Origin: Desulfatibacillum sp.
Lineage (GTDB): Bacteria > Desulfobacterota > Desulfobacteria > Desulfobacterales > Desulfatibacillaceae
Assembly (NCBI GenBank): GCA_016342355.1
Contig: JAEINP010000033.1
Coordinates: forward strand, 1-59,504
Direction of reading: 5' to 3'
DNA length: 59,504 bases
Shown here: in pieces, positions 2,697-22,728 of the stretch
How the letters are laid out: each line of letters begins with the position of its first letter
Numbering within the stretch: the first letter of the stretch is position 1
Program-made: the position numbers and the translations under genes
The notes under the pieces: generated by a model
Database searches by the model: none
Told to the model about the DNA's origin: nothing
Seen by the model: the letters and a program-made list of their open reading frames with translations, nothing else

Positions 2697-3382
2697 GTCC
2701 GCAACCCTATGATGATCAGCAGCATGTTGTTGAAATCATGGGCTACCCCGCCTGCCAACCGGCCGATGGACTCCATTTTTTGGGCGTGGTGCAATTGGTT
2801 TTCCAGGTCCCTTTGCTTTTCCTCTGCCTGTTTATGGGCGGAAATATCGCTGATTACCATTCTGCAAACCGGATTTCCGTCTATGGTTTTAGCGATAGCG
2901 GCTTCCAGCCGCGCCCAGAATGGAGTGTCTGCATTCCTTATTAAACGTAATTCGCATACCTGGGGAGAACCTGTTTCAAAAAGCAATTTGCGGTGATGGT
3001 AGTAGATATCCTGGTCATCAGGGAGGATGAAACGGGACAAGGGCGCCTTGATCAAAGAACCCCGAGCCTGACCCAATAGGGTGGCTGCGGAAAGATTGGC
3101 CTCTGTAATCAGGCCTTTTTCATTTATGGTGCAATAACCAACCGGCGCCATGTCGTACAGTTCAAAATATCTCTCCCGCGAGGACTCCAACTCAGCCTGC
3201 GTCCGGCGAAGTTCCTCATTCTGCATTTCCAGTTCTATCTGATGCACCTGGAGTTCATGGAGCATGCGCCGCGCCTCTTCAGGGACAAGGTTTTCCTGTT
3301 TATCCAGTTCATGGGCCAACTTTTCCTCCGCCAGCATGCGCAAATGGTCAGCATAGTCCTGCGCATTTTTTGTATCCGTCAT
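2690..3382 (-). CDS. PAS sensor plus H-box, N-terminal part of the same frameshifted hybrid kinase
   Basis: Begins at ATG 3382 with GAGAGGA upstream. An N-terminal coiled coil (heptad-like, about residues 12-70) is followed by a PAS domain (about 72-190) and the start of HisKA with the H-box GGVAHDFNN. After NNMLLIII the frame runs into TAA within a few codons, where relatives continue. The continuation (ADMLISDLP and onward) is in the +1-shifted frame at 1656-2696. The sensor is soluble, so the signal is probably cytoplasmic. Its cognate receiver is fused at the C-terminus of the broken partner. Confidence 0.75.
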
Positions 3383-4278: not shown

Positions 4279-5187
4279 TCAGGAAAGCAGGGGCATCATA
4301 TAACTGAAAATGCTTGTTCCGCTGTCGTGGGGCTTGCACCCTTCCAAGTCGGAGATTTTGTCGAAATTGTCCCGGATTTCTTCCACGGTGATGTCCCTTT
4401 GGGCGTCGCCAATGCACACTCCGGGGCCGGAAACCACGGCGGTTCTGCCGTACCATCCCGCGCCCATGACAAAAATCTGGCCGGTGGCCTGATTTTCTTC
4501 GGAGCAAAGATACAGCACCATGGGGGAGTTGAACTGGGGACGCAGTTTTTTGCCCATGTTCTCGTCAATGATGTCCTCGGTCATGCGGGAGTAAGCCGTG
4601 GGGGCGATGGTGTTGATTTTGATGTCGTATTTGGCCAGTTCGAGCTTGAGGGTGTTCATGATGCCGGCCACGCCCATTTTGGCTGCGCCGTAGTTGCACT
4701 GGCCGAAGTTGCCGTAAAGCCCGGAGGTGGAGGATGTGAAGATAACCCTTCCGTAGCCGTTGGCCTTCATGGCGGTAATGGCGGGCTGGGTCACGCAAAA
4801 AGCGCCCTTGAGATGCACGGCGATAACCAGATCCCATTCCTGCTCTGTCATTTTCAGGAAGGAACGGTCACGCAGAATGCCGGCGTTGTTGATGAGAATA
4901 TCCACCTTGCCGAAGGCGTCAATAGCGGTTTTCACGATATTGGCGCCGCCTTCCATGGTGGCCACATTGTCGTAGTTGGCGACGGCTTCGCCGCCCGCGG
5001 CCTTGATTTCATCCACCACGGAGTCGGCTGCGGAGGAGCTGGCGCCTGTTCCGTCCCGGGATCCTCCAAGATCATTAACCACCACCTTGGCTCCTCTTGC
5101 AGCCAATTCCATGGCGTACATCCTGCCAATACCAGCGCCTGCGCCGGTTACAATAGCCACTCTTCCGTCAAATCTGATTTCTGACAT
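4279..5187 (-). CDS. SDR dehydrogenase, MFE-2/HSD17B4 type
   Basis: A classical short-chain dehydrogenase of 302 residues that matches the (3R)-hydroxyacyl-CoA dehydrogenase domain of peroxisomal multifunctional enzyme 2. The NAD(P)-binding TGAGAGIG is at about 14-21, NNAG at 100-103, and the catalytic triad is Ser153, Tyr166, Lys170 (YGAAK). Asp39 after the second strand favours NAD+. It also has the long C-terminal extension of MFE-2 dehydrogenases. It is a close paralogue of the gene at 16688-17599, and the two proteins align almost without gaps. It is monocistronic, with its own terminator. A beta-oxidation role is inferred from the family; the chain specificity is unknown. Confidence 0.85.
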   Translation of the reverse strand: MSEIRFDGRVAIVTGAGAGIGRMYAMELAARGAKVVVNDLGGSRDGTGASSSAADSVVDEIKAAGGEAVANYDNVATMEGGANIVKTAIDAFGKVDILINNAGILRDRSFLKMTEQEWDLVIAVHLKGAFCVTQPAITAMKANGYGRVIFTSSTSGLYGNFGQCNYGAAKMGVAGIMNTLKLELAKYDIKINTIAPTAYSRMTEDIIDENMGKKLRPQFNSPMVLYLCSEENQATGQIFVMGAGWYGRTAVVSGPGVCIGDAQRDITVEEIRDNFDKISDLEGCKPHDSGTSIFSYMMPLLS

Positions 5188-13504: not shown

Positions 13505-14012
13505 TGTCCTTTACTGTTATTGGTATTATCAATCAGCCAACCCAACTAATCCACGTACAACAGGCTGCATCAAAAAGAAGGTCTTATCCCTTCAGACTCC
13601 TATGATGGAGTAAAAAACTGCTACTGCATGTACTTTTTTGAAACGAAAAAATCAAGTATTCAAGATGAAAATCCGTACTCTATAGAAAGTCCGAGTTAAT
13701 CTGACGTTTCCACGCATAAATCCCCCTGCTGTTTTCCATGCCGGCATATTTAGATGTGAATCAAAAGGGCCTTGTTAATTTGGAATAACGCATATTCCAT
13801 AACCTGCTGACTAACAGCCTCTCTCGACAATTTTCTAACCGGAAATTGCCGAGGGTAAATTTGATTGTGAATAAGAAAAAAAGTTGGTTTGCCTGCCGAA
13901 CAGTAGTTCCTTCATGTCCTTGTCCAATACGATTTGACTTGCCCAAAAACTTGCTTTTACCCGCTCGTGTTAAAAATCCCCTGGACAAAAAACCCCATTA
14001 CCGGGATGATAT
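13505..14012. other. AT-rich intergenic region
   Basis: About 500 bases between the minus-strand lipoprotein and the plus-strand crotonase, and noticeably AT-richer than either. It should hold both promoters. A minus frame at 13761-13988 has no recognisable sequence and no ribosome-binding site and is not called. The only clear structure is the inverted repeat at 14013-14031. Confidence 0.5.
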
Positions 14013-14031
14013 GGGTTGATCGCATCAACCC
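14013..14031. promoter_or_regulatory. 19-bp inverted repeat upstream of crotonase
   Basis: GGGTTGAT (14013-14020), spacer CGC, ATCAACCC (14024-14031) form a perfect dyad 41 bases before the crotonase start. Its size fits an operator of a TetR-type regulator, or it may form an RNA hairpin in the leader. The arms differ in sequence from the palindrome at 16584-16602. Confidence 0.4.
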
Positions 14032-14072
14032 TCTTGAACCGGCCTATGGCCCACCCAAAACGGAGAAAATCC

Positions 14073-14883: not shown

Positions 14884-16410
14884 CTACTTTTCCGAAAATA
14901 AAAGATCCTTTAGGCAGGGGTAAAATACGCTCATGAGCGTATCCTTGACCCACTGACGGTATTCTGCGCCTCTGGGCTCCATACCCAAAACCTGGGCGTG
15001 GTACGACGCCGCGCCCACACAACTGAACACCATGGAGCCAAACCCGAAAAGCCACATACGCACCCTTTCATCCGACTCGGGCAGGGGCAGGTATTCCCGG
15101 AACAAGTCCAGGGATTCCAGAAGAAAACCGGTCAGATGCTCAAACCCGGGCATATCTTCAAACTTGTCCAACTGGGCGATATTCTGCATGCAACCCATCA
15201 TGACATCGGGATTGTCAAAGCTGTAATCCAAAGTACGGGCCACAAAACGGGCCATGTTCTCATGCATGGAAGGGCTGTCCAAACCCTTGATGATACCTGT
15301 CACTGCAGCCCGAAACTCGTCCAGCAACTGGCTGGTGACCGCCTCAAACAGTTCCGCCTTCTTGGGAAAATAATGGTACAGAAGGGTGAAATCAAAGCCC
15401 CCTTCCTCCCCAATCATGCGAATGCTGGCCGCATTGTAAGGATATTTGGAAAACACCCGGCGAGCCACGGAAACAATCCTCCGGCGGGTGGCCTGGCCCT
15501 TGGTTTCTCCCTTGCGCACACGGCTGGGCGCCCTGCCCTTCCGCAGCATATGGGCGGATTTTTCTATGTCAGCCAACAACTTTTTAAAAGCCGGTCCCGA
15601 ATGCCCTAAGGAAAGCACGTTCCTGGCAGCCCCCCGCAACCGTTTGCGCACGGCCCCGGCGCTGTGCATGAGCGCCTCCCTGCCTTCTTCCATAAGGGAA
15701 GTATTGGGTTTGACGCTTTTACCGTTGCCTGAAAAAAACAGCCTCTTCACCGAGGGATAGAGTAAAAACACAAAAAGATCCTTGACCCACTGCCGATACT
15801 CCGGTCCTTCCGGGTCCATGTCCAGGACCTTGCAATAAAAATTGGAGGCGCCCACGCAATTGGCCAGTAAAATACTGGAGCAAAAAAACACATGGCTCAC
15901 ATTCTTGACATTGGCTTCAAAATACCCGCTGGCCGTGAACAAGGCCAGGATGTCCTCGTGGAATCCCCTCAAATATTCCATGCCGGGAAAAGCGTCAGCT
16001 ACATTATCCACGGCGCCCATGTTAAGCATCATGATGTGGAATGGGTCCGGATTTTCAAAGGAATAGCGGACAAAACGTTCGGCCAAAGCCTGTGTATTCT
16101 CATGCAAGGGACCGTTCAGGTCCATTATCATTTCACCGGAGGCTTGATAATACTTACCAATAAGGCTGCGGGAAACCTCCTCAAACAATTTTGCCTTGGA
16201 TTGGAAATGATAGCGCACAAAGGAATGGTTGAACCCCCCCTCCTGGCCTATCATTCGGATGCTGGCGGCGTCGTAGGGGTAATTGGTGAAAACCTTGCGG
16301 GCTGCGTCGGTAATCCGTTTCCGTGTGGCCTCGGTCTTAAGTTGCCGCTTGGAGGGTTTGGCCGATCCTGTCTTTATATTTCCTGAAGGGGTCATTTTTT
16401 TCTCTTTCAC
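14884..16410 (-). CDS. tandem double-TetR transcriptional regulator (two full TetR units in one chain)
   Basis: 508 residues, about 2.5 times the usual TetR length. Two complete TetR units, residues 28-227 and 307-508, align almost gaplessly over 200 positions. Each has the helix-turn-helix block (ATRKRI...AASIRMIGQEGGF and ATRRRI...AASIRMIGEEGGF) and a full ligand-binding domain (shared HEN, YSF-NPD, CVGA, EYRQWVKD). A basic linker of about 80 residues (228-306) joins them. Starts at GTG 16410 (GGAAGAG upstream) or ATG 16395. TetR proteins normally dimerise; this chain could form an intramolecular pseudo-dimer. It is divergent from the acyl-CoA operon and convergent with the crotonase, so it is probably their ligand-responsive repressor (inference). 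Confidence 0.9.
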   Translation of the reverse strand: MKEKKMTPSGNIKTGSAKPSKRQLKTEATRKRITDAARKVFTNYPYDAASIRMIGQEGGFNHSFVRYHFQSKAKLFEEVSRSLIGKYYQASGEMIMDLNGPLHENTQALAERFVRYSFENPDPFHIMMLNMGAVDNVADAFPGMEYLRGFHEDILALFTASGYFEANVKNVSHVFFCSSILLANCVGASNFYCKVLDMDPEGPEYRQWVKDLFVFLLYPSVKRLFFSGNGKSVKPNTSLMEEGREALMHSAGAVRKRLRGAARNVLSLGHSGPAFKKLLADIEKSAHMLRKGRAPSRVRKGETKGQATRRRIVSVARRVFSKYPYNAASIRMIGEEGGFDFTLLYHYFPKKAELFEAVTSQLLDEFRAAVTGIIKGLDSPSMHENMARFVARTLDYSFDNPDVMMGCMQNIAQLDKFEDMPGFEHLTGFLLESLDLFREYLPLPESDERVRMWLFGFGSMVFSCVGAASYHAQVLGMEPRGAEYRQWVKDTLMSVFYPCLKDLLFSEK

Positions 16411-16570
16411 ATTGTCTCTTCCGCCCTGTATTGAAGGCTGATCCTCGGGTCAGGGTTTTTCAATGCAAGGCTTGTCTTCCTCATGCCGCCCGGAATCAAC
16501 TCCGGTTTCCGGGCCTTGCCCCCCCTCTGCCCTAACTACCCACATTGGCCCCTGGTTATCAAATATTTTC

Positions 16571-16602
16571 TTGACAAAAATATTTTCATCCGATAGATGA
16601 AA
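16571..16602 (+). promoter_or_regulatory. promoter with overlapping TetR-type operator for the acyl-CoA operon
   Basis: A consensus -35 TTGACA (16571-16576) is followed at 17 bases by a weak -10 TAGATG (16594-16599). A perfect dyad TTTCATC-CGATA-GATGAAA (16584-16602, 19 bp) covers the spacer and -10. Repressor binding there would block the polymerase. It lies in the divergent region between the tandem TetR gene and the SDR gene. Confidence 0.5.
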
Positions 16603-16687
16603 TTTATCCATGCGTTGAAATATTAACGTTCAGCATTCCCATTGTCAAGCAATATGCCATCAAAAACCACAAATAAGGAGACAGACT

Positions 16688-17599
16688 ATGACGGACATCC
16701 GATTCGACGGCAGGGCGGCTATTGTTACCGGAGCAGGCGCGGGCCTGGGCAGGACATACGCCCTGGCATTAGCGGAACGGGGGGCCAGCGTGGTGGTCAA
16801 CGACCTGGGCGGCTCCCGGGACGGCACAGGCGCCAGCGCCAGTGCGGCAGACTTGGTGGTGGACGAAATCAAGCAGGCCGGGGGTCAGGCTGTGGCCAAT
16901 TATGATTCTGTAGCCACCATGGAAGGCGGCGCCAACATTGTCAAAACCGCCGTGGACGCATTTGGTAAGGTGGATATTGTCATCAACAACGCTGGAATAT
17001 TGCGGGACAAGAGCTTTGTGAAAATCGGCGAACCGGAATGGGACCTAGTGTTGGCTGTTCATCTCAAGGGGGCGTTTTGCGTAACTCAGCCCGCATTCAA
17101 GATCATGCGCGAAAACGGGTATGGCCGGATTGTGAACACCACCTCGGGTGCAGGCTTGTACGGCAACTTTGGCCAAAGCAATTACTGCGCCGCCAAAATG
17201 GGTCTGGTGGGCCTCATGAACAACTTGGCCATCGAGGGCGCCAAATACAATATCAAGTGCAATACCATCGCCCCCATTGCCGCCTCACGCCTGACTGAAG
17301 ACATCATGCCGCCCAACCTTCTGGAAAAACTACAGCCCGAGTTCATCACGCCTCTGGTGCTGTATCTTGCTTCCGAAGCCAATACCGATTCCAAGAAAAT
17401 TTTCAACTGCGCTGCCGGTTGGTTCAGTCGGGCCGAAGTAGTGTGCGCCCCCGGAGCTATAATCGGGGACGGCAAACGGGAAATTTCTCCCGAGGAAATC
17501 GGCGAAAACTGGGCGAAAATCATGGATATGGACGGCGCAAAACCCCTGGGGGCCGTGGGCGAATCCTTCGCCTTTTTAGGGCCTTTGCTTTCTTCGTAA
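16688..17599 (+). CDS. SDR dehydrogenase, MFE-2/HSD17B4 type (acyl-CoA operon)
   Basis: 303 residues, a (3R)-hydroxyacyl-CoA dehydrogenase-like SDR. TGAGAGLG is at 14-21, NNAG at 100-103, and the catalytic residues are Ser153, Tyr166, Lys170. The segments NDLGGSRDGTG and ILRDKSF are hallmarks of the dehydrogenase domain of peroxisomal multifunctional enzyme 2. In eukaryotes that domain is fused to hydratase-2 and SCP2; here SCP2 is a separate gene (18933-19496) and no hydratase-2 is seen. It has the ribosome-binding site AAGGAGA about 8 bases before ATG 16688. First gene of the plus-strand series, downstream of the palindromic promoter. Paralogue at 4279-5187. Confidence 0.9.
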   Translation: MTDIRFDGRAAIVTGAGAGLGRTYALALAERGASVVVNDLGGSRDGTGASASAADLVVDEIKQAGGQAVANYDSVATMEGGANIVKTAVDAFGKVDIVINNAGILRDKSFVKIGEPEWDLVLAVHLKGAFCVTQPAFKIMRENGYGRIVNTTSGAGLYGNFGQSNYCAAKMGLVGLMNNLAIEGAKYNIKCNTIAPIAASRLTEDIMPPNLLEKLQPEFITPLVLYLASEANTDSKKIFNCAAGWFSRAEVVCAPGAIIGDGKREISPEEIGENWAKIMDMDGAKPLGAVGESFAFLGPLLSS

Positions 17600-17661: not shown

Positions 17662-18843
17662 ATGAGAAGAGTCAATGTAATCGGAGTGGGCATGACCAAG
17701 TTCACCACGCCCAAAGCCAAAATTCCCTATACAACCATGGGCAAGGAAGCCGTGGTAGACGCGCTAAAGGACTCGGGGATTGATTTCAAGGAAATCGAAC
17801 ATGCCTACACCGGCTGGGTTTACGCCGATAGTTGCGCCGGACAAATGGTGCTCTACGATTTCGGCATGACCGGCATTCCCGTGTTCAATGTCAATAACAA
17901 CTGCTCCACAGGATCCAACGCCCTGTATCTGGCCCGCCAGGCTGTGGCTTCAGGCGTAGTGGAATGCGCCCTGGCCCTGGGTTTCGAGCAAATGACTCCC
18001 GGCGCTTTGGGAGTGGTCTTTAATGACCGCCCCATTCCCATGCAGACTTTTTTTGTCAAACTCTTTGAATTCCAGCCACCCAAGCCGGGTTCTGCCCCGG
18101 CCGCCATGCTCTTTGGCGGCGCAGGCATGGAATACCAACAAAAGTACGGCGCCTCGGACGATACTTTCGGAAAAATTTCCGTCAAAGCCCGCAAACACGC
18201 CCAGCATAACGAACGGGCTGTATTCCGGGATCTTTTATCCCTGGAAGAAGTCATGGCCGCGCCCCATCAATTCGGCCCCCTCACCCGTTACCAGTGCTGT
18301 CCCCCCACCTGCGGGGCTGCAGCGGCTGTGGTGTGTTCCGACGAATTCGCCGCCAAACACAACATCACCAACCCTGTGTATATTGCAGGCCAGTCCATGA
18401 AAACCGACTTTGCCAGCACTTTCGAAGGGTCCAGCCCCATGCGCATTTGCGGGTACGATCTGTCCGTGGAAGCAGCCAAGGACGTCTATGAACAGGCGGG
18501 CCTTGGACCGGAAGACGTGGACGTGGTGGAATTGCATGACTGCTTTACCGCCAACGAGCTTATCACCTATGAAGCTCTGGGTCTCACCCAGGAAGGCACG
18601 GCGGAAAAATTCATCAATGATGGGGACAATACCTACGGCGGCAAGATCGTGACCAACCCCTCGGGCGGATTGCTTTCCAAGGGCCATCCTTTGGGCGCCA
18701 CAGGCCTGGCCCAGTGCGCCGAGCTTACCTGGCAGCTTCGAGGTGAGTGCGGAGTCCGCCAGGTGGAAGGCGCTAAGGTGGCTTTGCAGCACAACATAGG
18801 GCTGGGCGGCTGCTGCGTGGTGAGCATGTACCGAAAGGATTGA
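17662..18843 (+). CDS. SCP-x/non-specific lipid-transfer type thiolase
   Basis: 393 residues. The thiolase fold has its nucleophilic Cys81 in NNNCSTGSNAL. The later motifs are HDCFTANE, GGLLSKGHPLGATGLAQ (catalytic His) and GLGGCCVVS (second Cys). This Cys-His-Cys set and HDCFT are those of the SCP-x/SCP2-thiolase subfamily, which cleaves 3-ketoacyl-CoAs including 2-methyl-branched ones. It follows the SDR by 62 bases with the ribosome-binding site GGGAGA. It would perform the last step of each beta-oxidation round. Synthase-like thiolase relatives without cleavage activity exist, so the substrate remains inferred. Confidence 0.88.
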   Translation: MRRVNVIGVGMTKFTTPKAKIPYTTMGKEAVVDALKDSGIDFKEIEHAYTGWVYADSCAGQMVLYDFGMTGIPVFNVNNNCSTGSNALYLARQAVASGVVECALALGFEQMTPGALGVVFNDRPIPMQTFFVKLFEFQPPKPGSAPAAMLFGGAGMEYQQKYGASDDTFGKISVKARKHAQHNERAVFRDLLSLEEVMAAPHQFGPLTRYQCCPPTCGAAAAVVCSDEFAAKHNITNPVYIAGQSMKTDFASTFEGSSPMRICGYDLSVEAAKDVYEQAGLGPEDVDVVELHDCFTANELITYEALGLTQEGTAEKFINDGDNTYGGKIVTNPSGGLLSKGHPLGATGLAQCAELTWQLRGECGVRQVEGAKVALQHNIGLGGCCVVSMYRKD

Positions 18844-18932: not shown

Positions 18933-19496
18933 ATGGCAGCAGTACCGAATAACATCAGCATCAAGGAACTTCTGACTCAGGTCATGCCCGAAATCTCCAA
19001 AAAAGCCCTGGAAGACCAAGGCAAGGTATCGGAGCTCGCGGGAACCGAAGTCACCATGACCGTGGAGACATCCACGGAAAAGTACAGCTTTACCATCAAG
19101 GACGGCGTCAACATAAATGTGGTGGAGGGCGACATGGACTCCCCCAACGTGCGCATGACCATTTCCAATGACGATCTGCTGAAAATGATCGCCCAGGGAG
19201 AACTGGACATGCTTCTGGGTATGTCCAGCGATCTCAACGCGCAAAAGGTCAGCACCCTCAAGCAGCTTAGCGGCGCCATGAAGGTAAACCTGGCCAACGA
19301 TGACGGCAGTAGCTACACCATCCAGACCGTGTTCAACGGCGCCCTGTCCCCGGCTTGCACCATGAATCTCAAAACCTCGGACTCGGCGGCCATCATAAAA
19401 AAGGAAACCAGCCCCGTGACCCTGTTCATGGCAGGCCAGATCACCATGGACGGCGATATGGGTTTTGCCATGGGATTCCAGCCCCTGGTTACCTAA
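18933..19496 (+). CDS. SCP2 sterol-carrier domain protein
   Basis: 187 residues, soluble. A C-terminal SCP2-like domain (about 65-187) has alternating strands and the DSPNVRMTISNDDLLKMIAQGELD stretch plus a GQITMDGDMGFAMGF end typical of the fold (quoted in parts). The first 60 residues are a helical/beta extension. SCP2 domains bind acyl chains, acyl-CoAs or sterols and pass them to enzymes. In eukaryotes the domain is fused to MFE-2 or SCP-x thiolase, whose homologues are the two genes directly upstream. Ribosome-binding site AAGGAGG lies before ATG 18933. Confidence 0.82.
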   Translation: MAAVPNNISIKELLTQVMPEISKKALEDQGKVSELAGTEVTMTVETSTEKYSFTIKDGVNINVVEGDMDSPNVRMTISNDDLLKMIAQGELDMLLGMSSDLNAQKVSTLKQLSGAMKVNLANDDGSSYTIQTVFNGALSPACTMNLKTSDSAAIIKKETSPVTLFMAGQITMDGDMGFAMGFQPLVT

Positions 19497-19503
19497 TCCG
19501 TTT

Positions 19504-19577
19504 CCGGAGGAGGCCAATGGCCTTGGAATTCCCTCCTCCGGGCCTGCCCGGCCAGCCATTGGGCTGGCCAGGCAGGC
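19504..19577. repeat. two consecutive strong hairpins in the operon
   Basis: Hairpin 1: CCGGAGGAGG (19504-19513) with CCTCCTCCGG (19532-19541). Hairpin 2: 16-base arms at 19542-19557 and 19562-19577 (GCCTGCCCGGCCAGCC against GGCTGGCCAGGCAGGC), one mismatch and a 4-nt loop. No T-run follows. They sit between the SCP2 and acyl-CoA dehydrogenase genes and may act as mRNA stabiliser, attenuator or REP-type element. Confidence 0.65.
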
Positions 19578-19627
19578 TTAATCAATATTTCATAAACCCG
19601 CAGACTCATATCCGCCCGGAGGTCAGC

Positions 19628-20815
19628 ATGATCAACCTGGAACTCTCGGAAAACATGGTCAACTTGCAAAAAAATATCAAAATGGTGGCAAAAAGCATGT
19701 TTCGGCCCATATCCAGGAAATATGACCAAGCCGAGCATGAGTACCCCAAGGAACTGGATGTGTTTAGGGGCGCGCCTCTGTTCTCCCGGTCCGGGAAGAA
19801 AAAAGATCCCGCTAAATCCTCCTCCGATCAGGGAAAATCCGGCCCCAACCTGGGCCAGATACTCAGCGTGGAAGCCATGTGCTGGGGAGACTGCGGCCTG
19901 CTCATGTCCATCCCCAACGCAGGCGTAGGCAATGCGGCCCTGGTGGCGGTGGCCACAGACGAACAGATGGCGAAATGGGGACATATGTGGATCGCCTTCG
20001 CCAATACGGAGTCCGGGGCAGGCTCCGACGCCGGGTCCATCCAAACCACCGCGGACCTTGACGGGGATGAATGGGTTTTGAACGGCGAAAAAATATTCGT
20101 CACCTGCGCGGACCGCTGCGATGCCGTGGTGGTGTGGGCCACCCTGGACAAGGCTGTCGGCAAGGCTGGCATCAAACCCTTTTTGGTGGAAAAGGGCAAC
20201 CCGGGCATGAAGTTGGAACACCTGGAAAATAAATGCGGCCTGCGCGCTTCGGACACCGGCACCTTTGTGTTCACCAATTGCCGCATCCCCCAGGAAAACC
20301 TCCTGGGCGACCCGGAAATCAAGCAAACCTCCGAGGGCTTCAAAGGCGTCATGAAAACCTTTGATATGACCCGGCCCATGGTGGCGTCCATGGCAAACGG
20401 CCTGGCCAGCGCATCTTTGGGCCTTCTCAAAGAAAAAATGGCTGAAAACGGCATGCATCCGGATTACCACGCCGCCCCCAACAGTCTCAGCGCCACGGAA
20501 AAAGAATTCATGCTCATGGAAGCCAACCTGGAAGCCATGCGGCTTCTTACTTACAAAGCCGCATGGATGGCCGACAACGATCAGCCAAACAATGTGGAAG
20601 CCTCCATGGCCAAGGCAAAATCAGGCCGCACAGCGACAATCATCGCCCAAAAATGCTGCGAACTCCTGGGTCCCCTGGGATTCACCACCAAGGAACTTGC
20701 CGAAAAATGGATGCGCGACGTCAAGATCATGGATATTTTTGAAGGCACCGGCCAGATACAACATCTCATCATCGCACGGCATATTCTAAAATTATCCAGC
20801 AAAGAACTAAAATAA
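19628..20815 (+). CDS. acyl-CoA dehydrogenase
   Basis: 395 residues from ATG 19628, chosen because GGAGGT lies at 19618-19623. The frame is open further upstream, but that stretch overlaps the hairpins and the SCP2 end. FAD-enzyme motifs are present: the mid-domain FANTESGAGSDAGSIQT and the C-terminal DIFEGTGQIQ with its catalytic-Glu position (MCAD-type). The N-terminus is a little divergent and carries a low-complexity insert (GKKKDPAKSSSDQGKSG, about 60-76). It would introduce the alpha-beta double bond, passing electrons to an ETF not encoded here. Probably the third catalytic step enzyme of the cluster; 2-methyl specificity is possible but unproven. Confidence 0.9.
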   Translation: MINLELSENMVNLQKNIKMVAKSMFRPISRKYDQAEHEYPKELDVFRGAPLFSRSGKKKDPAKSSSDQGKSGPNLGQILSVEAMCWGDCGLLMSIPNAGVGNAALVAVATDEQMAKWGHMWIAFANTESGAGSDAGSIQTTADLDGDEWVLNGEKIFVTCADRCDAVVVWATLDKAVGKAGIKPFLVEKGNPGMKLEHLENKCGLRASDTGTFVFTNCRIPQENLLGDPEIKQTSEGFKGVMKTFDMTRPMVASMANGLASASLGLLKEKMAENGMHPDYHAAPNSLSATEKEFMLMEANLEAMRLLTYKAAWMADNDQPNNVEASMAKAKSGRTATIIAQKCCELLGPLGFTTKELAEKWMRDVKIMDIFEGTGQIQHLIIARHILKLSSKELK

Positions 20816-20973
20816 TTCGAGGGAACAAGACTGGTTTTTTCAACGCACCCAGTATATAATTCAACACTTGGTAATATTTAAACCAGACGGGTTCACGCAG
20901 CACTTATCAGCTTATTGAATCAGACAGTGGCCTTATTCGCCACCCTTCCCCAAACGTGATCGTGGAGGCGCCA

Positions 20974-22728
20974 ATGGGAAAATTTTCACCAAACATCATT
21001 GCAGACAATCTGGCAGCCCTGGACAAATACAACGGACAGGGCGAAGCAATTATTTACGGCGATACCCGCGTCACATGGAGCCGTTTGTATCAAAGGGTCT
21101 GCCAACTCGCTCAGGGGCTTATCCGCCTGGGCGTTAAAAAAGGGGATAAGGTGGCATTCCTGTTCCACAATACCCCGGAATTCGTGGAGGTGAACTTTGC
21201 CATCCAAGTGGCCGGGGGTATTCCCGCGCCCATGAATTACCGGCTGGTGGCGCCGGAAATCGAGTTTCAGGTCAATCATTGCGACGCCCAGGTTTTCCTT
21301 TTTGACCAAACCTGGAACGAAGAGGTGGAAAAGGCCGCTCCCAATCTAACAGCCATTCGCCATTTTATTTGCAAAGGAGTTACGGGAATTGAGTCTGCCC
21401 TGGACTACGAAGTCTTTGTGGCCGGAGAAATCGCCCAAGATCCAAGTGTGGAAACCCTGCCCCACGAGCCTGCGGTGATGATTTACACCGGCGGCACCAC
21501 GGGTTTTCCCAAGGGTGTGCTTTTGTCATACAAGGCCCACGTGGACATGCTGGCCTCGCTTGTGGCGAATATCGCCGTGTATGTGCCGGGCATGAACCTG
21601 ACTCAGGATAAACTCAAAAATCTTACCGAAAACGTGTCCATTCCTGGCTTGAGCCTTGCCCTGCCCATGATGCAGACACGGCTTTTCAAAAGCATCATAA
21701 AAAGAAACGGCGCCCTTAAGCTCATAAAAGGCACGCTCACCAGGGTCATGAATAAGCCAGGCTCCCTGCAAAGGCGTTACAAAGACCCACAAGGATTTAT
21801 GTTTCCTTCGATGCCCCTGTTTCACGATGCCGCCTACGCCATGCTCATGCAAGGCATTTTTATGGGAAATGTGCGCTTAATCCTGGTTCCGGGCCTGAGT
21901 TTTGATCCTGAAAAGGTTTTCCAGACTATTCAGGACGAAAAACCCTTTTTCCTGGCAAATGTCCCAACCGGATGGAAAAAACTGGTCAAGTTTCCCGGCA
22001 AGGATAAATACGACACCCGATCCGTCAAAACATGCATTTCCGGGGCCGGGGTATGCCCGATCGAGATCAAAAAAAAGATGTTCAGCACCTTTCCCAATGC
22101 CATAGTGGCGGACATGTTCGGACAAACGGAGATGACACCGGTCACTACCTTTAAAATAGACGCAGACGCCTCCACCCTAAAGGACCGTTCCGTGGGCAAC
22201 TCCATTGTGGATGTAAAAATCGTGGATGACCTGGGCAACGAAGTACCCCGGGGCCAGCACGGAGAAATCCTGTACCGCTCCTCCACAGTCATGATGGGTT
22301 ATTACAAGGACGAACAAAAAACCGGCGAAGCCATGGCCGGGGGATGGTTCAAGAGCGGGGATCTGGGTTATATCGACGAAGACGGCGAGGTCCGCCTGTT
22401 GGACCGGAAAAAGGAATGCATCAATACCGGCGGCGAAAAGGTCTTTCCCGTGGAAGTGGAAGGCATCATCGGCGCCCACCCTGCCGTGGAAAACGTGTGC
22501 GTTATTGGGGTGGAAGATGAGGAATGGGGATCCCGAGTCCACGCCGTAGTTCAACTCCACGGAGGCGAAAGCGTCGACGAACAGGAAATCATCGAGTTTT
22601 GCCGGGGAAAGATCGCCGGATATAAAATACCCAAATCCGTTGTTTTTGTGGAGGAATTCCCCCTGTCTCCCGTGGGAAAAATACTCCGGGCCAAAGTGCG
22701 TGAAATGATGGTGCAGCCTGTTTTTTGA
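20974..22728 (+). CDS. acyl-CoA synthetase (AMP-forming ligase)
   Basis: 584 residues from ATG 20974 (GGAGG at 20964-20968; ATG/GTG upstream is possible). ANL superfamily: P-loop YTGGTTGFPKG (about residue 166 of this form), PLFH, FGQTEMTP, and the C-terminal SGDLGYIDEDG, DRKKECINTGGEKV and the catalytic Lys in PVGKILR. It activates a free acid to its CoA thioester via an acyl-adenylate in the cytosol. The spacing between P-loop and PLFH is about 112 residues instead of the roughly 50 usual in the family, so it carries an extra helical segment there. Located between the dehydrogenase and the racemase, it probably supplies the operon with its branched substrate. Confidence 0.9.
   Translation: MGKFSPNIIADNLAALDKYNGQGEAIIYGDTRVTWSRLYQRVCQLAQGLIRLGVKKGDKVAFLFHNTPEFVEVNFAIQVAGGIPAPMNYRLVAPEIEFQVNHCDAQVFLFDQTWNEEVEKAAPNLTAIRHFICKGVTGIESALDYEVFVAGEIAQDPSVETLPHEPAVMIYTGGTTGFPKGVLLSYKAHVDMLASLVANIAVYVPGMNLTQDKLKNLTENVSIPGLSLALPMMQTRLFKSIIKRNGALKLIKGTLTRVMNKPGSLQRRYKDPQGFMFPSMPLFHDAAYAMLMQGIFMGNVRLILVPGLSFDPEKVFQTIQDEKPFFLANVPTGWKKLVKFPGKDKYDTRSVKTCISGAGVCPIEIKKKMFSTFPNAIVADMFGQTEMTPVTTFKIDADASTLKDRSVGNSIVDVKIVDDLGNEVPRGQHGEILYRSSTVMMGYYKDEQKTGEAMAGGWFKSGDLGYIDEDGEVRLLDRKKECINTGGEKVFPVEVEGIIGAHPAVENVCVIGVEDEEWGSRVHAVVQLHGGESVDEQEIIEFCRGKIAGYKIPKSVVFVEEFPLSPVGKILRAKVREMMVQPVF

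Follow-up and report, generated by a model that had tools for sequence, protein, structure and literature searches.

The locus analyzed here raises the question of whether a repressor that carries two TetR units on one polypeptide could bind, as a single chain, an operator with two unlike half-sites. It lies in a stretch of 59,504 nucleotides from Desulfatibacillum sp. (contig JAEINP010000033.1), the whole of which is referred to here as the window. The double-TetR architecture as such is already known from a published example, Mce3R (Rv1963c) of Mycobacterium tuberculosis, which carries two TetR units on a single chain (PDB 9b7y; PMC11667970); the operator evidence presented below is new. Each Mce3R chain is described as folding into an asymmetric, TetR-like unit that sits on a non-palindromic site, with the chains then dimerising; the protein is autoregulated and has two non-palindromic operator sites upstream of a lipid-related target operon (PMC11667970). 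The same publication cites 204 double-TFR proteins predicted in Actinomycetes, which share the tandem TetR architecture with the family described here, found in the order of Desulfatibacillum (PMC11667970). An engineered single-chain TetR (PMC1797012) reportedly also has two TetR domains per chain, but is a laboratory construct, whereas the window protein is natural and its halves have diverged. In the open-access literature, we found no other studied natural double TetR besides Mce3R, and recognised no paper on the present tandem family.

One reading frame encodes two complete TetR units

The minus-strand frame at 14884-16410 is uninterrupted and comprises 508 codons when counted from a GTG at 16410. 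This GTG is an alternative upstream start; we place the start at the ATG at 16395, 15 bases inside it, because this ATG is conserved in the Desulfatibacillum alkenivorans DSM 16219 orthologue. The tandem TetR gene (14884..16395, minus strand) thus encodes 503 amino acids. Pfam PF00440 (TetR_N) scores 77.6 bits for the whole protein against a curated cut-off of 24 and matches two stretches, which places the protein in the TetR/AcrR family by its DNA-binding domain. Pfam, an alignment of the halves and an AlphaFold model delimit an N-terminal unit (residues 16–222; 15730..16350, minus strand) and a C-terminal unit (residues 291–503; 14887..15525, minus strand), which are 40% identical across approximately 200 residues. 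With two complete units in one polypeptide the protein is a double TFR, and not a homodimeric TetR with one unit per chain. We take the recognition helices, assigned from the TetR fold, to be GFNHSFVRYHF around H57 in the N-terminal unit and GFDFTLLYHYF around D335 in the C-terminal unit. The units are joined by a linker (15526..15729, minus strand) that forms low-confidence helices in the AlphaFold model. It is basic (14 K+R, 5 D+E), as the initial annotation had described it, and with 68 residues slightly shorter than the 80 given there.

In D. alkenivorans the orthologous gene is intact, and its product shares 82% identity with the window protein (N half 82%, linker 62%, C half 89%). Ka/Ks between the two species is 0.08 for the N half, 0.31 for the linker and 0.07 for the C half; the DNA-binding domains, at 0.05 and 0.03, are more conserved than the whole halves. 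Judged by these ratios, both halves are retained under purifying selection, and the linker less so. The intact orthologue, the Ka/Ks of both halves and 15 further tandem genes rule out an assembly fusion of two genes; the uninterrupted frame, the two TetR_N stretches and the orthologue confirm the initial reading of a single frame with two complete units.

Tandem TetR proteins form a family within one order

Profile searches identified at least 16 tandem TetRs in nine genomes of three families, all within one order: six genomes belong to the same family as the window's, one to family f14 and two to f70. The genome of the window itself encodes three further tandem TetRs and several single TetRs of the same group. 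The highest number of tandems seen in a single genome was four, a difference from Mce3R. The searches covered overlapping sets of 59 genomes, 389 of the order, 389 of the class and 395 of the phylum. With the full-length profile, the class and phylum sets, in which the best four or fewer candidates per genome were scored and further tandems of a genome could be missed, gave no additional tandems among the matches listed, the remaining matches being of single-TetR length. In the 12 tandems measured, the linker is 31–68 residues long.

We built a tree from 16 N halves, 16 C halves and 41 single TetR rows. One group (support 99/98) holds 14 of the 16 N halves, and the C halves fall on one side of a weakly supported branch (70/6). 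Two N halves, from L042 and L045, lie outside the main N group; a topology that constrains all 16 to one group is not rejected (p-AU 0.43; 68 of 73 rows). Branching inside the N and C groups largely matches, with the window protein, its orthologue and L111 together, and L048, L113 and L114 together. The largely separate grouping of N and C halves is as expected from one old fusion followed by radiation, which is the outcome of the phylogeny of the halves that the initial annotation had proposed. As a further difference from Mce3R, each half of the tandem proteins is akin to its partner half as well as to local single TetRs.

The two kinds of half differ at the start of the recognition helix. 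It reads x-H-[PS] in 15 of 16 N halves (the exception, L112, has NYA) and D-[FH]-[TS] in all 16 C halves. Since most single TetRs have the x-H-P form (27/32 rows in one set and 5/9 in another, two rows being common to both), the form of the C half looks derived.

Operators of a sister lineage are asymmetric

Operators were compared at eight sister loci: L043, L047, L048, L049, L050 and L051, together with L113 and L114 from another family. Pairwise comparison revealed the word ATTTACCG-NNY-GTAGAAA twice per divergent intergenic region in the first six, with GTGGATT as its last part in L048; L113 and L114 have the same GTGGATT form. The operator thus takes the form TTTACCG-N3-GTAGAAA at five loci, and has GTGGATT as its right half at three. 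At all eight loci two direct sites lie on the same strand, 54–56 bp start to start, and TTGACA lies between them, 23–26 bases past the point where the first one starts. The two sites thus enclose the divergent gene's core promoter. The sites of Mce3R are 25 bp each and separated by 53 bp (PMC11667970).

A scoring matrix was built leaving out one locus at a time, with 200 shuffles as comparison; as the word had been chosen by eye from the pairwise matches beforehand, this test carries less weight. The two top-scoring positions were these sites at all eight loci, 15 of the 16 sites scored above the best of 200 shuffles (the exception being the second L050 site), and the opposite-strand score was below 0 for all 16. 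The sister-lineage operator is asymmetric because its half-sites, TTTACCG and TTTCTAC (the reverse complement of GTAGAAA), differ. With up to one mismatch, the GTAGAAA form was matched in six genomes at the sister loci, plus two places elsewhere in D. alkenivorans.

L048, L113 and L114, which form one clade, combine the right half-site GTGGATT with S for T in the C-half helix, the left half-site being unchanged. This co-change (T to S, GTAGAAA to GTGGATT; five and three loci) counts as one event, because one tree branch carries it.

The divergent genes fall into two groups. In four genomes a glycyl radical enzyme of about 840 amino acids lies divergent to the tandem TetR (L043:10227-12740, L047:11415-13946, L049:2128-4638, and L051 from 10962, where the copy is cut off). 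Two of these were scanned; that of L043 matches Pfam PFL-like, and both score below every listed NCBIfam cut-off. The other two were assigned by similar N-termini. In the second group the first product of the divergent target is acyl-CoA dehydrogenase-like and about 535 amino acids long (L048:9606-13633, L113 from 10184, L114 from 9874), assigned by a scan in L048 and by a similar N-terminus in L113 and L114. The next gene in L048 is an HGD-D gene (2-hydroxyglutaryl-CoA dehydratase/benzoyl-CoA reductase-like).

Operators of single TetR regulators

Single TetRs served as a control. In a motif search, 12 of 13 pooled loci had the palindrome TTTAACGATCGTTAAA (TTTAACG-AT-CGTTAAA) or a near form (f60 6/6, f35 3/3, f45 1/1, f105 1/1, f74 1/2). 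The f103 single TetRs have TTTACCGATYGGTAAR in four of four cases, as TTTACCG-AT-CGGTAAA (L157) or TTTACCGATTGGTAAG. When 50 upstream regions of single TetRs (2 of them duplicated) were scanned, 14 reached 11 or 12 of the 12 palindrome positions; for the remaining 36, no more than 5 of 100 shuffles did as well in 10 cases, and more than 5 did in 26, which makes the control partial. For the f18 singles the motif search gave mostly a stretch near the start codon, and for f74 alone and f70C it gave G+C-rich noise.

On its left side the tandem operator has the same half-site as a single TetR with an H-P helix. This suggests the N half as the reader of that side and the C half as the reader of the right half-site. 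TTTACCG is therefore probably recognised by the N half, and the second half-site by the C half. As there are single-unit relatives with palindromic sites, the change from a symmetric to an asymmetric operator is traceable and could be tested half by half. Tracing it would reveal how a dimeric repressor is released from palindromes by duplication and fusion, and the tandem family offers parts for repressors with independently changeable half-sites.

A candidate operator between divergent promoters at the window locus

Upstream of the window's tandem gene, a block at 16555..16621 is near-identical in the two Desulfatibacillum species, while the rest of the intergenic region has largely diverged; it coincides with the footprint at 16560-16620 that had been suggested initially. 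It is a candidate operator region with two candidate sites. Candidate A (TTTCATCCGATAGATGAAAT; 16584..16603, plus strand), found by pattern searches and a palindrome scan, is a palindrome with arms of 7 bp in the window and 9 bp in the orthologue. Candidate B (16602..16621), identified from the species alignment, reads ATTTATCCATGCGTTGAAAT in the window and ATTTATCCAGCCGATGAAAT in the orthologue and has unlike half-sites; either orientation is possible. The two abut and are 18 bp apart. An exact search for WTTYATCC-N4-GWTGAAAT found only the two abutting sites in each of the two genomes searched. The sister-lineage matrix picks B first in both species, within about the top 5% of shuffles and in either orientation.

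The candidate operator (16584-16621) sits between the divergent promoters of the tetR gene and an acyl-CoA operon. A putative tetR promoter, TTGACA-N17-TAATAT (16620..16648, minus strand), came from a promoter scan and is largely conserved in the orthologue. On the plus strand, TTGACA at 16571..16576 was read from the sequence as a putative -35 box of the acyl-CoA operon; it is absent from the promoter-scan output, and no good -10 box follows it. The TTTATCC of B starts 32 bases past the start of this TTGACA, a spacing similar to that of the second sister-lineage site, which in L114 starts 34 bases past its own TTGACA.

An asymmetric operator, which the initial annotation had proposed for the fused protein, is therefore strongly supported in the sister lineage (8/8 loci) and suggested as the likely reading for the window protein, where two species provide a palindromic A and an asymmetric B. 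Its other proposed site, at 14005-14035, gave no match to the operator pattern with up to one mismatch.

The related pattern TTTCATC-N5-GATGAAA was considered as the mark of a wider regulon and rejected, as the window shows no enrichment for it over shuffles (5 matches, shuffle mean 4.2, with up to three mismatches). Within the window's own genome it occurs with up to two mismatches at 34 places, against 6 for the reversed control pattern, and exactly at two, the second being C14:251-269.

The divergent operon begins with a short-chain dehydrogenase/reductase (SDR) gene (16688..17599, plus strand; Pfam/NCBIfam), followed on the same strand by an SCP-x type thiolase (17662..18843; PRK08256 lipid-transfer protein, above cut-off) and a small protein (18933..19496) that has no NCBIfam match and is presumably SCP2-like. 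An acyl-CoA dehydrogenase-like gene (19355..20815, plus strand; NCBIfam matches below cut-off) probably has its true start internally, and is followed by an acyl-CoA ligase-like gene (20956..22728, plus strand; best NCBIfam match 417 bits against a cut-off of 476). Flanking branched acyl-CoA genes, as annotated initially, are thus broadly right, but the enoyl-CoA hydratase gene is convergent in the window and missing at the orthologous locus. The SDR gene is missing there as well, the thiolase gene being first. As neither is present at the D. alkenivorans locus, the SDR and the enoyl-CoA hydratase are less certain targets.

The predicted fold resembles Mce3R over the whole chain

AlphaFold2 models, each built from an alignment of 4 sequences, reached a mean pLDDT of 72.4 and pTM of 0.72 for the window protein, and 74.1 and 0.74 for the paralogue P0004. 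The model of the window protein has the all-helical TetR fold with a C-terminal ligand domain. In Foldseek searches with both models, the only PDB match with E ≤ 0.001 was Mce3R (9b7y), over the whole chain (E 6.6e-6). The fit is loose (window protein TM 0.44/0.53, rmsd 9.4; paralogue TM 0.50/0.57, rmsd 7.9). VIA-align to 9b7y gave Z 18.8 over 367 residues (rmsd 7.0). The next-best match covers one domain and aligns the C half with DesT (PDB 3lsp; Z 13.7, the highest among single TetRs), an acyl-CoA-sensing TetR repressor which, unlike the window protein, has one TetR unit per chain. Among the rows listed, the N half is covered by the whole-chain 9b7y match.

A pairing of the two halves within one chain through a mixed four-helix bundle is consistent with this whole-chain match in two models (rmsd 7–9, 4-sequence alignments). 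The pseudo-dimer suggested in the initial annotation gains support from it, with the two halves fitting loosely.

The window protein thus shares with Mce3R the two TetR units per chain and a whole-chain structural match. Non-palindromic sites, as described for Mce3R (PMC11667970), were seen at the 8 loci of the sister lineage; the window locus offers one asymmetric candidate beside a palindromic-looking one, both from two species. By sequence the two proteins differ: in a comparison of a tandem-family profile with PDB sequences, Mce3R comes 50th (E 2.6e-8), and the 49 ahead of it are, by name and length, single TetR-type regulators. The window protein is closer by sequence to single TetRs and does not appear to be an Mce3R orthologue; the tandem family lies outside Actinomycetes and is apparently of separate origin.

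Proposed mechanism and alternatives

We consider it fairly probable that the window protein acts as a double TetR-family repressor with intrachain pairing of its halves, that its differing helices bind a non-palindromic operator, and that it represses itself and the acyl-CoA operon. The two halves would pair as the subunits of an ordinary TetR dimer do, each supplying one helix-turn-helix; as these differ, the chain would bind a non-palindromic operator, the N half probably reading a half-site of ancestral type and the C half one that has changed. The protein would most likely bind the sites at 16584-16621 between the divergent promoters, and repress its own gene and the operon for SDR, SCP-x thiolase, acyl-CoA dehydrogenase and acyl-CoA ligase until an acyl-CoA intermediate binds and the repressor lets go. 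We infer the intramolecular pairing, the assignment of halves to half-sites, the repression and the ligand, repression and acyl-CoA release being deduced from position, TetR family and gene content.

For the family as a whole, we give about even chances to a wider proposal: that after one fusion the C half came to recognise a new half-site, the N half retaining its former specificity, which yielded single-chain repressors whose operators follow a two-part code. Within one cell, paralogues would share the N-half word TTTACCG and be told apart by the C-half word (GTAGAAA for the glycyl radical enzyme, GTGGATT for the acyl-CoA dehydrogenase operon, both in genome G005), with site pairs bracketing each promoter.

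Two chains could instead pair N with N and C with C, as tied symmetric repressors with two different palindromes and two ligands. Each half is a complete TetR unit, and candidate A is palindromic, as a symmetric reader would use, and conserved in two species. We nevertheless regard this arrangement as unlikely: none of the 16 sister-lineage sites is a palindrome, and their two unlike half-sites, 10 bp apart, are needed by neither pair; palindromes with much the same geometry occur in some single relatives; and the models resemble Mce3R, in which pairing is intrachain.

The operator data fit equally well if the N-C pairing were swapped between two chains, giving the same asymmetric site with another assembly that possibly bridges the promoter-flanking sites. 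Linkers of 31–68 residues (12 tandems) look long enough for this, and Mce3R itself dimerises and can hold two DNAs (PMC11667970). Against it stand single-chain models with fair pTM, though these are compatible with swapping; we rate the swapped form as quite improbable. That only one half binds DNA, with the other a diverged partner or sensor and the operator unrelated to the halves as proposed, would agree with the strong difference between their recognition helices, but is very improbable given that both DNA-binding domains are more conserved than the whole halves (Ka/Ks 0.05 and 0.03) and that the C-half helix D-[FH]-[TS] is kept in 16/16. The preferred reading remains intrachain pairing on a non-palindromic operator.

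Other members of the group

Six single TetRs (L052, L059, L092 as row L112b, L093 as row L115, L116 and L117) lie beside the C halves in the tree, and from this placement may be descendants of tandem genes after loss of the N half. C-type palindromes were expected upstream of L052, L059, L092, L093 and L117, and none was found; either this prediction failed or the operator lies elsewhere. A search for operators of the paralogue pairs L041/L046 and L042/L045 and of L112 gave none that was convincing, and L111, without upstream DNA, falls outside the operator comparison. Upstream of L042 (about 4510-4540) and L045 (about 3285-3310), a conserved inverted GTGAA-N4-TTCAC is present before TTGACA.
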